28,938 nucleotides of DNA from a virus, in the IMG/VR virus record IMGVR_UViG_3300010373_000111, positions 1 through 28,938 of that record; one strand, given 5' to 3'. The notes beneath the pieces are model-generated. The model had not been told where the DNA came from. It saw only the letters and a program-made list of their open reading frames with translations, and searched no databases. Below, piece after piece: positions 3,316 to 13,219 of this stretch. Every line of letters begins with the position of its first letter. Within the stretch, counting starts at the first letter, position 1. The position numbers and the translations under genes were made by a program.

Positions 3316-3542
3316 CAACTCGCCGCAAATCCGTCCAGCACCCCCGCATCGGATTGCACGTCGAGATAACCCGGCTGCTGCGGGATCGCGCGCTGACTGC
3401 GATTGACCTGGCCGCAATGCTCGGCAAGCAACAGGCTGGCATAGATAGCGCACTGCGTGGGATGGAGCGGCGCGGGGAGATTCGGCGGCTGCCGTACCAG
3501 CTGGGCGTATGGGCGAAATGGACGTTGCGGAGTGAGCCATGA
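3312..3542 (+). CDS. small winged-helix-like protein, 76 aa
   Basis: A small basic protein whose sequence reads like a winged-helix DNA-binding fold: helix EITRLLRDRAL, then TAIDLAAMLGKQQAGIDSALRGMERRGEIRRL, then a short beta wing (YQLGVWAKWTL). This pattern of a MarR/Lrp-like helix, recognition helix and hairpin is common in small phage regulators. No specific family is claimed. Start and stop overlap both neighbours (ATGA), placing it in the early operon just before the nuclease. A DNA-binding or accessory replication role is inference. Confidence 0.65.
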   Translation: MTTRRKSVQHPRIGLHVEITRLLRDRALTAIDLAAMLGKQQAGIDSALRGMERRGEIRRLPYQLGVWAKWTLRSEP

Positions 3543-3859
3543 CGCATCCCGCCAGCGTCGCGCGAGGCCGCAAAGATGCTAACCATAACGATGTCGTGAA
3601 ATGGCTGGAGGGGCTTGGTTGCAGCGTGATCGAGCTCCACAAGACAGGCATTCCTGGATTCCCGGACCTTGTCGTCGGCGCCGTCGGCAGGACGCATCTT
3701 GTCGAAATCAAGAATACCGGTACGACGTACGGCCGCGCCGGATTCAGCGAGACCCAGATGGCGTTCAACCGCGACTGGCGTGGCGCCAAAGTCTGGCTTG
3801 TGTCGGACTTGGACGGCGTGACGGAAATGGTCAACGCATGGCGGAAGGGGTGCGCATGA
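3539..3859 (+). CDS. VRR-NUC family PD-(D/E)xK nuclease
   Basis: 106 residues, close to the usual size of stand-alone VRR-NUC proteins. The catalytic core is visible: GIPGFPDLVVG supplies Pro42-Asp43, HLVEIKN supplies Glu56-Ile57-Lys58, and the SETQMAF segment (Gln73) follows as in this family. These proteins cut branched DNA and often replace a RuvC or Rus resolvase in phages, so the likely job is to clear junctions in replicating phage DNA before packaging. It is the last gene of the plus-strand early run; its stop abuts the stop of the reverse-strand helix-turn-helix gene with no gap, so the two units converge. Confidence 0.88.
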   Translation: MTHPASVARGRKDANHNDVVKWLEGLGCSVIELHKTGIPGFPDLVVGAVGRTHLVEIKNTGTTYGRAGFSETQMAFNRDWRGAKVWLVSDLDGVTEMVNAWRKGCA

Positions 3860-4069
3860 CTACCGTCGCGCAAGCTGTTCCAGCGCGTACTGCACCGCAT
3901 AGCTCGGCGTCCGGTACCCCGGTATCGACGGATCGCACAGATGCGCTCGCATCTGCCGATCAGAGATACCGATCAGCTTCGCGGCGGCGCGCTGCGTCAG
4001 TCCGGCTTGAGCGAGCAACGCCCGGAGGTATTCCGGGCGCGGATCGTGGCGGGAGGCGTCGGGCTTCAT
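3860..4069 (-). CDS. helix-turn-helix DNA-binding protein, 69 aa (Aca-like position)
   Basis: Read right to left from the ATG at 4069, which overlaps the stop of the upstream gene (ATGA), so the pair is translationally coupled. Residues ~12-45 form a classic helix-turn-helix (LRALLAQAGLTQRAAAKLIG, then ISDRQMRAHL); a short C-terminal helix (YAVQYALEQLARR) may mediate dimerisation. It is the second gene of a two-gene operon whose promoter contains a palindrome, so it probably represses that promoter. A small HTH protein distal to a small unrelated protein is the layout of anti-CRISPR-associated (aca) genes, but also of many small phage regulators. DNA-binding function is well supported; target and Aca identity are inference. 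Confidence 0.82.
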   Translation of the reverse strand: MKPDASRHDPRPEYLRALLAQAGLTQRAAAKLIGISDRQMRAHLCDPSIPGYRTPSYAVQYALEQLARR

Positions 4070-4272
4070 TCGCCGTATTCGGCGGCATCCTCCAGCGCCT
4101 TGCGCGCGCGTTCCGCGACATCGTCCGCGTCGCAACCCTCACACGACACGATGGCGATGCCACCATACACCTTGTGCTCATCACGGACGATGCGATTTAC
4201 CGCCGCCTCAATGCTGCGGTGGGTCTTGAGGTCGCCGCCTGCAATATTGGCCGTCTGGATGCTGATGCTCAT
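4066..4272 (-). CDS. small acidic protein of unknown function, first gene of reverse-strand operon
   Basis: 68 residues from the ATG at 4272, chosen because AGGAG lies 6 bases upstream on the minus strand; an in-frame ATG at 4311 sits at the predicted transcription start and would lack a leader. I do not recognise the family. It is acidic (13 Asp/Glu against 8 Lys/Arg), with an N-terminal strand-like segment (SISIQTANIAGG), a helix, the hydrophobic strand YGGIAIVSCEGC with two cysteines, and an acidic C-terminal helix (DVAERARKALEDAAEYGE). It is the first product of the operon and co-expressed with the HTH protein. It could be an anti-defence protein, a regulator partner, or an early host-takeover protein. 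Confidence 0.75.
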   Translation of the reverse strand: MSISIQTANIAGGDLKTHRSIEAAVNRIVRDEHKVYGGIAIVSCEGCDADDVAERARKALEDAAEYGE

Positions 4273-4317
4273 CTCGATCTCCTGTCTGCGCCTCGCCGAA
4301 GTGGCTGGCATGGATAT

Positions 4318-4346
4318 ATAGTAGGCTCATTGAGCGTATGCGTCAA
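4318..4346 (-). promoter_or_regulatory. sigma70-type promoter for the reverse-strand operon
   Basis: On the minus strand TTGACG (4346-4341) and TACTAT (4323-4318) are separated by exactly 17 bases, 5/6 and 4-5/6 matches to consensus. Transcription would begin near 4311, giving a leader of about 40 bases before the AGGAG and ATG at 4272. It is the best promoter I can see in the window. Confidence 0.75.
4325..4335. promoter_or_regulatory. palindrome in the promoter spacer (candidate operator)
   Basis: GCTCA-T-TGAGC is a perfect 11-base inverted repeat lying wholly between the -35 and -10 of the reverse-strand promoter, where a bound repressor would block RNA polymerase. The natural ligand would be the HTH protein of the same operon; this is inferred from position. 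Confidence 0.5.
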
Positions 4347-4354
4347 GCGCCCGA

Positions 4355-4380
4355 ACGAAAATAATCGAAACGATTTTCGT
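4355..4380. promoter_or_regulatory. second inverted repeat upstream of the promoter
   Basis: Perfect 8-base arms ACGAAAAT (4355-4362) and ATTTTCGT (4373-4380) flank a 10-base centre that holds TCGAAACGA. It sits 8 bases upstream of the reverse-strand -35 and just before the plus-strand genes at 4401, so a protein bound here could act on either direction. Function is inferred. Confidence 0.4.
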
Positions 4381-11926: not shown

Positions 11927-13219
11927 ATGAGCAAGAATCTCCGCGAGCTGCAGGCTCGCAAGGCAAAGCATGTCGCCGCCATGCGTGCGATTTCCGACAG
12001 GGCCGCCACCGAGTCGCGCGACCTGACCGACGACGAGGTCGCCAGTTTCGACGCCGAAAAGGCCTCGGCCGAGCGCGTCACCGCCGCCATCGGCCGCGAG
12101 CAGGATCTGATCGAGCACGAGCGCAGCGCCGGCGTGGTTCTTCCGGACGATGCGCAAGTCGGCAACCTCACCGATCGCGCTGCGGCCGACCCACGTCACG
12201 GCTTCGCCAACTTTGGCGAGTTCGCCGCTGCTGTGCGTACCGGCGGCCAGCGCAATGGCGCCATCGACCAGCGCCTGACCATCGGCGCTGCCGCGCCGGG
12301 CACCTATGCCAACGAGGCGTCAGGCGTGGATGGCGGCTATCTGATTCCGCCGGAGTTCTCCACCGAGATCTTCAATCTGTCGCTGACCGACGACGCGCTG
12401 CTTCCGATGACCGATAACGTCGATGTCAAAGGCAATGGCATGACGTTCCCGAAAGACGAGACCACCCCGTGGGGCACCGACGGCGTACGCGCCTTCTGGC
12501 AGGCCGAGGCCTCGGTGGCCAACGCCACCAAGCCGAAGTTCGGCGTGTCCTCGCTTCGGCTGCACAAGCTGATGGCGCTGGTGCCGGTTACCGACGAACT
12601 GATGGCCGATTCCAGCGCGCTGGATTCGTATCTGCCCAACCTGGTGGCGCGCTCGATCCGCTGGAAGACCAATGAGGCGATCCTGCTGGGCGACGGTGCC
12701 GGCAAGCCGCTGGGCGCATTCAATGGCTCTGCCGCCGTGGTGGTGGCCAAGGAATCCGGTCAGGCGACCCAGACCGTCGCGCTGGCGAACATCACCAAGA
12801 TGATCGCGCGGCTTCCCCCGGGCAGCTTCCCGAAGGCGAACTGGCTGATTACGCCGGACGCGTTGCCGGCGCTGTTCGGCCTGACCCTGGGCAACTACCC
12901 GATCTATCTGCCGATCTCGCAGGGCGCACAGGGCTCGCCCTACGGCACGCTGATGGGCCGCCCGATCATGGTCAGCCAGCACGCCTCCGCGTTCAGTGCG
13001 CAGGGCGATATTGAGCTGGTCGATATGAGCTATTATCGCACCATCACCAAGGCCGGCGGCATCAAGACGGACACGTCCATGCATCTGTATTTCGATGTCG
13101 ATGCGACCGCCTTTCGCGCGATCTTCCGCGTGGATGGTCAGCCCAAGATCGTCAACCCGATCGCGCAGGCCAAGGGCAGCAACACGCTCTCGCCATTCAT
13201 CCAGCTCGGCGCGCGTTAA
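11927..13219 (+). CDS. major capsid protein, HK97 fold
   Basis: 430 residues from the ATG at 11927, with GGAG 8 bases upstream; the frame extends further left but crosses the hairpin. Residues 1-70 are a charged coiled coil (NLRELQARKAKHVAAMRA ... REQDLIEHE), the delta or scaffold domain. A linker rich in Ala and Gly leads to the mature shell domain, which begins around GVDGGYLIPPEFSTEI (~133-148), with the E-loop region near KGNGMTFPKDETTP and conserved VPVTDELMADSSALDSYLP, LLGDGAGKPLG and GRPIMVSQ. These are standard HK97-fold landmarks. The protease encoded upstream probably cuts between the delta domain and the shell domain, in the range ~105-132; the site itself is not readable. Confidence 0.97.
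   Translation: MSKNLRELQARKAKHVAAMRAISDRAATESRDLTDDEVASFDAEKASAERVTAAIGREQDLIEHERSAGVVLPDDAQVGNLTDRAAADPRHGFANFGEFAAAVRTGGQRNGAIDQRLTIGAAAPGTYANEASGVDGGYLIPPEFSTEIFNLSLTDDALLPMTDNVDVKGNGMTFPKDETTPWGTDGVRAFWQAEASVANATKPKFGVSSLRLHKLMALVPVTDELMADSSALDSYLPNLVARSIRWKTNEAILLGDGAGKPLGAFNGSAAVVVAKESGQATQTVALANITKMIARLPPGSFPKANWLITPDALPALFGLTLGNYPIYLPISQGAQGSPYGTLMGRPIMVSQHASAFSAQGDIELVDMSYYRTITKAGGIKTDTSMHLYFDVDATAFRAIFRVDGQPKIVNPIAQAKGSNTLSPFIQLGAR

Follow-up and report, generated by a model that had tools for sequence, protein, structure and literature searches.

Inverted repeats in the core promoter mediate the repression by which regulators of the Aca1 to Aca10 families control their own operons (PMC9410906). 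Known anti-CRISPR (acr) genes adjoin only 15% of Aca-like homologues when all families are pooled (PMC9410906). The best-matching annotated homologues of the regulator described here are those of Pseudomonas phages JBD30 and DMS3. In JBD30 the gene directly upstream is annotated as AcrF1, and in DMS3 it is a type I-E Acr.

The window is the whole stretch of DNA from an uncultured phage that was analyzed, 28,938 nt (IMG/VR record IMGVR_UViG_3300010373_000111, positions 1 to 28,938). An earlier note, made from the letters alone, had described a reverse-strand unit in it with the architecture of an anti-CRISPR/aca locus. The unit contains the following features.

4356 to 4379, reverse strand: upstream imperfect inverted repeat containing CGTTTCGA, from the sequence; its outer arms are not conserved in the related phage L002.
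4341 to 4346 (read 4346-4341), reverse strand: -35 element TTGACG, from the sequence; conserved in L002.
4322 to 4338 (read 4338-4322), reverse strand: putative Aca1 operator, the 17-mer TACGCTCAATGAGCCTA, from the sequence, its consensus match and co-variation.
4318 to 4323 (read 4323-4318), reverse strand: -10 element TACTAT, from the sequence, with a 17-nt spacer to the -35 element.
4290 to 4309, reverse strand: conserved acr-aca1 leader, GCCAGCC-ACTTC-GGCGAGGC, at the predicted mRNA 5' end; possible hairpin.
4279 to 4283, reverse strand: Shine-Dalgarno site AGGAG, from the sequence, 6 nt before the ATG of P1.
4066 to 4272, reverse strand: P1, a 68-aa acidic orphan in the acr position and a candidate anti-CRISPR or anti-defense protein.
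3860 to 4069, reverse strand: aca1-family gene, by homology, for a 69-aa helix-turn-helix (HTH) putative autorepressor, with an ATGA overlap with P1.

The sequence check found on the reverse strand everything that had been noted there, namely the near-consensus promoter, the palindrome in its spacer, the AGGAG site, the 68-aa open reading frame (ORF) and the ATGA-coupled 69-aa ORF. The P1 ORF spans 4272-4069 with its stop at 4068-4066. The HTH ORF spans 4069-3863 with its stop at 3862-3860, and it starts inside the ATGA overlap. It lies directly downstream of the small cargo gene, and the two share a single promoter. The mRNA would start near 4311, which places the leader about two bases from the expected start. 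As the note had said, the unit runs against its neighbors. It lies between a small endonuclease-like gene (the upstream neighbor, 3539-3859; PHROG endonuclease) and the lysis region. Prophages in the order to which the betaproteobacterial MAG L034 belongs encode portals 60 to 63% identical to that of the window. This points to Betaproteobacteria as the host, without identifying it.

The HTH protein is by sequence a clear relative of the anti-CRISPR regulator Aca1 and a member of its family. It is 56 to 58% identical over 66 to 67 aa to Aca1 of DMS3 and JBD30, with E values down to 3e-17 (tblastn against phages). That search matched 127 records, of which 126 were Pseudomonas phages, and the best were DMS3 and JBD30. 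The Aca1 chains 7VJN, 7C0G and 7FA3 in the PDB match at E values of 1e-19 to 3e-19; the next PDB candidate is Aca7 at 0.49. The note had seen no named homologue, and Aca1 is one. The protein gives weak generic HTH matches in Pfam and NCBIfam, and in PHROGs it falls in family 3865, of unknown function. The family alignment contains 19 invariant columns. Relatives were also retrieved from Xanthomonas plasmids and many uncultured viral contigs. Homologues in other loci follow members of the Pfam families AcrF1, AcrF2, AcrF3, AcrF31 and AcrIC5, so the possibility raised in the note that the regulator never occurs near anti-CRISPR genes did not hold.

Two groups of more distant relatives were observed. 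About 120 of 399 Pseudomonas genomes encode a distant homologue of the Aca1 profile (about 40 bits), many of them on large chromosomal contigs. These are possible solo Aca1-like regulators. In Moraxella (L024, L026, L031 and L032), Aca1-like HTH genes follow genes for small proteins whose hydrophobic end probably spans the membrane, and the leader is missing. The regulator is perhaps put to a different use there.

The putative operator is an imperfect 17-mer, TACGCTCAATGAGCCTA, with 7 of 8 symmetric pairs. It contains the 11-nt palindrome GCTCAATGAGC at 4335-4325 (reverse strand). The palindrome lies within the spacer between the -35 and -10 elements, and its 17-mer touches the -10 element. 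The L002 counterpart is a perfect palindrome, TAGGCTCAATGAGCCTA. We derived an operator consensus from 69 distinct promoters anchored on the leader. Most of them contain the 17-mer consensus TAGGMACANTGTKCCTA in the spacer. The window 17-mer has 3 mismatches to this Aca1-family consensus, and 3 or fewer were found in 1 of 1,380 shuffled promoters. It lies at -29 from the leader, the same distance as in JBD30 and DMS3. By position and consensus match, it is an inverted repeat of the Aca1 type in the core promoter.

The recognition helix of the HTH protein varies together with the operator. The helix RQMRAHL is confined to the window, L002 and L003, which are the sole loci with CTCA/TGAG half-sites. 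RVMRYYL pairs with CACA/TGTG or AACA/TGTT sites, SWxGFRxYL with GGGTAACA..TGTTACCC-like sites, and AAGFQNYI with GACATACA..TGTATGTC sites. The mutual information between two helix positions and the inner triplet gave a P value of 0.0005, which is the floor of 2,000 permutations and is not corrected for ancestry. Part of this co-variation reflects shared ancestry, as the window, L002 and L003 form one clade, yet a separate operator goes with each of several helix classes. Co-variation across the family is the best available support, beside the operator match, for binding of 4322-4338 by the HTH protein, probably as a dimer.

The note had also named a stretch farther upstream, 4355-4380, for a binding test. 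An imperfect inverted repeat does exist at about 4356-4379, but L002 does not preserve its outer arms and only its core, CGTTTCGA, recurs (in L002, L003, L034 and L149). In these loci and in the window, the core is preceded by A(A/T)TACTG(A/T)ACT. A different 11-mer, CCGACGAACGG, recurs just upstream of the -35 element in Pseudomonas and Xanthomonas loci (L017, L018, L030, L124, L195, L236 and others).

The cargo slot differs between loci. L002 encodes an HTH protein identical in amino acids, and very few base differences separate its promoter, leader and ribosome site from those of the window. From the ATG to the start of aca1, it contains unrelated sequence with an 82-aa protein in place of P1. 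Compared at the sequence level, this is a cargo swap, and the cargo is exchangeable. L003 contains two other small genes in the slot. Across the leader-bearing loci, the slot genes encode 98 proteins in 63 sequence clusters. Among these, Pfam recognizes AcrF1, AcrF2, AcrF3, AcrF31, AcrIC5, DUF932 and a Lar-like restriction-alleviation protein, and PHROGs further identifies type I-E and I-F anti-CRISPRs as well as a DNA methyltransferase. The note had advised looking for small genes beside homologues of the HTH gene, and those found include five named Acr families. The slot is therefore an anti-defense slot with anti-CRISPRs as its commonest named content.

Some cargo looks anti-restriction rather than anti-CRISPR. 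It includes the DNA methyltransferase-like genes of L250, L255 and L258, the one Lar-like gene, and the DUF932 gene of L265. This suggests that Aca1 operons are general anti-defense cassettes. A search for empty sites with the upstream endonuclease gave one distant match and nothing else.

P1 has a pI of 4.87. Its GC contents at codon positions 1, 2 and 3 are 0.66, 0.44 and 0.75; those of the portal gene are 0.62, 0.45 and 0.77, and those of the primase gene 0.65, 0.47 and 0.75. P1 looks coding because this pattern matches these undoubted genes of the window. We retrieved no homologue from Pfam, PHROGs, NCBIfam, PADLOC or the PDB. No relatives were found in phages, plasmids, viral contigs or genome contigs (species genomes), in 7 genomes or records with related loci, or in 369 genomes of the class, and P1 matched no other slot protein of the leader-bearing loci. 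A match to Pfam CGGC (E value, 0.08) was rejected as chance. AlphaFold run on the single sequence gave two helices with a pLDDT of 56, which is not a usable model. The note's description of a protein of no recognized family was thus borne out, and P1 also matches no family with another known role.

Acrs share no common sequence feature, and orphan status is usual among them. The missing match to a named Acr family in Pfam, NCBIfam, PHROGs and the PDB therefore bars filing P1 under such a family; it does not bar the functional claim. What points to that function is position, as P1 is a small protein whose gene occupies the cargo slot of a mobile-element aca operon. By this position, P1 is probably an anti-CRISPR protein. 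That it is either an anti-CRISPR or some other anti-defense protein, taken together, is highly likely. The note had proposed both. Genes for restriction alleviation and a methyltransferase occur in the same slot of other loci, and P1 is a candidate anti-CRISPR. As an orphan lacking a usable model, P1 contains nothing that ties it directly to CRISPR inhibition.

The leader is a near-invariant element of about 20 nt directly after the -10 element. Its general form is GCCAGCC-N(4-7)-GGCGAGGC. A search with the Aca1 protein alone gave 131 loci, of which 97 contain the leader; those lacking it are mostly truncated contigs, Moraxella loci or loci of conjugative elements. We also used it as bait, as the DNA pattern ATGCCAGCCAN{2,4}CGGCGNGGCG, in viral contigs. 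The pattern matched 71 places. In 57 of these an Aca1 gene lies within 2.5 kb, and in 3 a hybrid regulator is present. One or two of the other matches seem fortuitous; the remainder are truncated at the ends of contigs or stretches. As bait, the leader recovers acr-aca1 operons almost exclusively.

The leader plausibly forms an mRNA hairpin, a hypothesis that fits its invariant arms and variable loop. In 46 distinct 26-nt leaders, both arms are nearly invariant and the loop takes 29 sequences of four lengths. No compensatory changes were found in these arms, and the folding energy was no better than that of shuffles (z = -0.18), so the leader may instead act as DNA or serve as an anchor for recombination. 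A conserved leader peptide was rejected: the ATG is missing in L005, L007, L013 and L200, and the frame varies, ending in DMS3 and JBD30 either ahead of the acr start or at it. No Rfam family came near its gathering score. Identity over 14 nt with a Burkholderia sRNA probe in the literature was rejected as chance. We found no earlier description of the leader in the literature searched, which excluded several key Aca1 papers.

Aca2 reportedly binds RNA as well as DNA. Tentatively, and with less than even confidence, we read the leader as an undescribed 5'-terminal regulatory element. It would probably be an mRNA hairpin that stabilizes the transcript or is recognized by a protein in post-transcriptional control. 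It would be common to phages and plasmids across Proteobacteria whichever acr follows. The leader would also mark operons in which a hybrid of different fold has taken the place of the repressor. On this reading, P1 would found a new Acr family.

Such hybrid regulators were observed in L145, L149 and L167, which contain the same leader. The regulator starts like Aca1 (MKPDASxHDP) and continues as unrelated sequence (WSRANExKRxAAGGRRxPGG...), possibly ribbon-helix-helix-like. It has no Pfam match. The operator also differs (TAACGCGCGTTAG), and the L149-type regulator was present in two viral contigs. L174 contains two copies of the leader, at 12441 and 12735, 294 nt apart. Each is followed by a start codon, and the contig ends there. 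These are perhaps tandem acr cassettes.

Operon anatomy, Aca1 homology, the operator co-varying with the helix, cargo exchange and the known acrs in homologous slots were computed. We infer the early burst, the repression and the role of P1 as an anti-CRISPR or other anti-defense protein. The unit is very likely an acr-aca1 operon in which P1 disables a host defense and the Aca1-family protein shuts the operon off. When the phage DNA enters and no repressor is yet present, the near-consensus promoter would give a burst of mRNA and P1. P1 would disable the host defense, most likely type I CRISPR-Cas. The HTH protein would accumulate later as a dimer and bind 4322-4338, a site that lies between the promoter elements and overlaps them, and the operon would turn off. 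The anti-CRISPR/aca architecture proposed in the note is supported by the Aca1 homology, the operator match and the acrs in homologous slots.

It is rather unlikely that P1 counters a non-CRISPR defense (restriction modification or a newer system) from within the same Aca1-controlled operon. The Lar-like, methyltransferase and DUF932 cargo of homologous loci would agree with such a role, as does the co-location of acr genes with other anti-defense genes (PMC7648647), but Acrs are the majority of the slot families with an assigned function (AcrF1, F2, F3, F31, IC5 and a type I-E Acr), and P1 is single and very small, as Acrs are. A plain regulator pair, the main alternative in the note, or a toxin-antitoxin pair would have the HTH protein controlling a phage gene unrelated to host defense. 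A small gene with an HTH autorepressor is toxin-antitoxin anatomy too, and the Moraxella relatives follow small membrane proteins without the leader. The window, however, contains the full hallmarks of an Aca1 operon (leader, operator, ATGA overlap and cargo swap). P1 matches no toxin, antitoxin or regulator family, and the HTH protein is weakly generic HTH and strongly Aca1. This makes such a pair very unlikely. Least probable of all is that P1 is a decayed or spurious ORF in an operon that now keeps aca1 only. Its lack of homologues anywhere searched would suit that explanation, but orphans are usual among Acrs, and P1 has a good ribosome site, is coupled to aca1 by ATGA and resembles other window genes in its codon pattern.

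The acr-aca1 operon kind is already known. To a specialist, the novelty lies in the changed pairing of operator and repressor and in the leader that these operons share. An unannotated 68-aa ORF can now be tested as a candidate anti-CRISPR from beyond the well-mined Pseudomonas phages. The repressor-operator pairs are natural variants with altered specificity and could define an Aca1 recognition code. With the leader as a short nucleotide signature, acr-aca1 operons can be found, as can variants that have other regulators, with no need of protein homology.

The acrIF1-aca1 operon of JBD30 and the type I-E acr-aca1 operon of DMS3 (Casadabanvirus) share with the window the acr-aca order, overlapping genes and small cargo. 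They also share an Aca1-family repressor (about 58% identity) and a palindrome in the -35/-10 spacer at an equal distance from the same leader, GCCAGCCAC..CGGCGAGGCG. Their cargo genes are unrelated to P1. The half-sites are CTCA/TGAG in the window and CACA/TGTG in JBD30 and DMS3, with the matching helix change from RVMRYYL to RQMRAHL in the window. The window contains only one clear operator, unlike those phages. Its unit lies near lysis genes and against its neighbors, whereas theirs lies in the head genes. The window phage is not a close relative of Casadabanvirus and has no near DNA match in phages. In the Aca10 operon of Pseudomonas citronellolis, one half-site of the published operator, in IR2 (AATACGCTCATTGAGCGTATT), is identical to the half-site TACGCTCA of the window (PMC9410881). 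Aca10 belongs to another HTH family, and the window protein matches Aca1 by sequence and not Aca10. The Xanthomonas plasmids pXAC33 and pXVH45 encode an Aca1 relative with 60 to 61% identity and contain the leader, the operator and orphan small cargo. They differ in being plasmids and in their cargo, an unrelated 102-aa protein.
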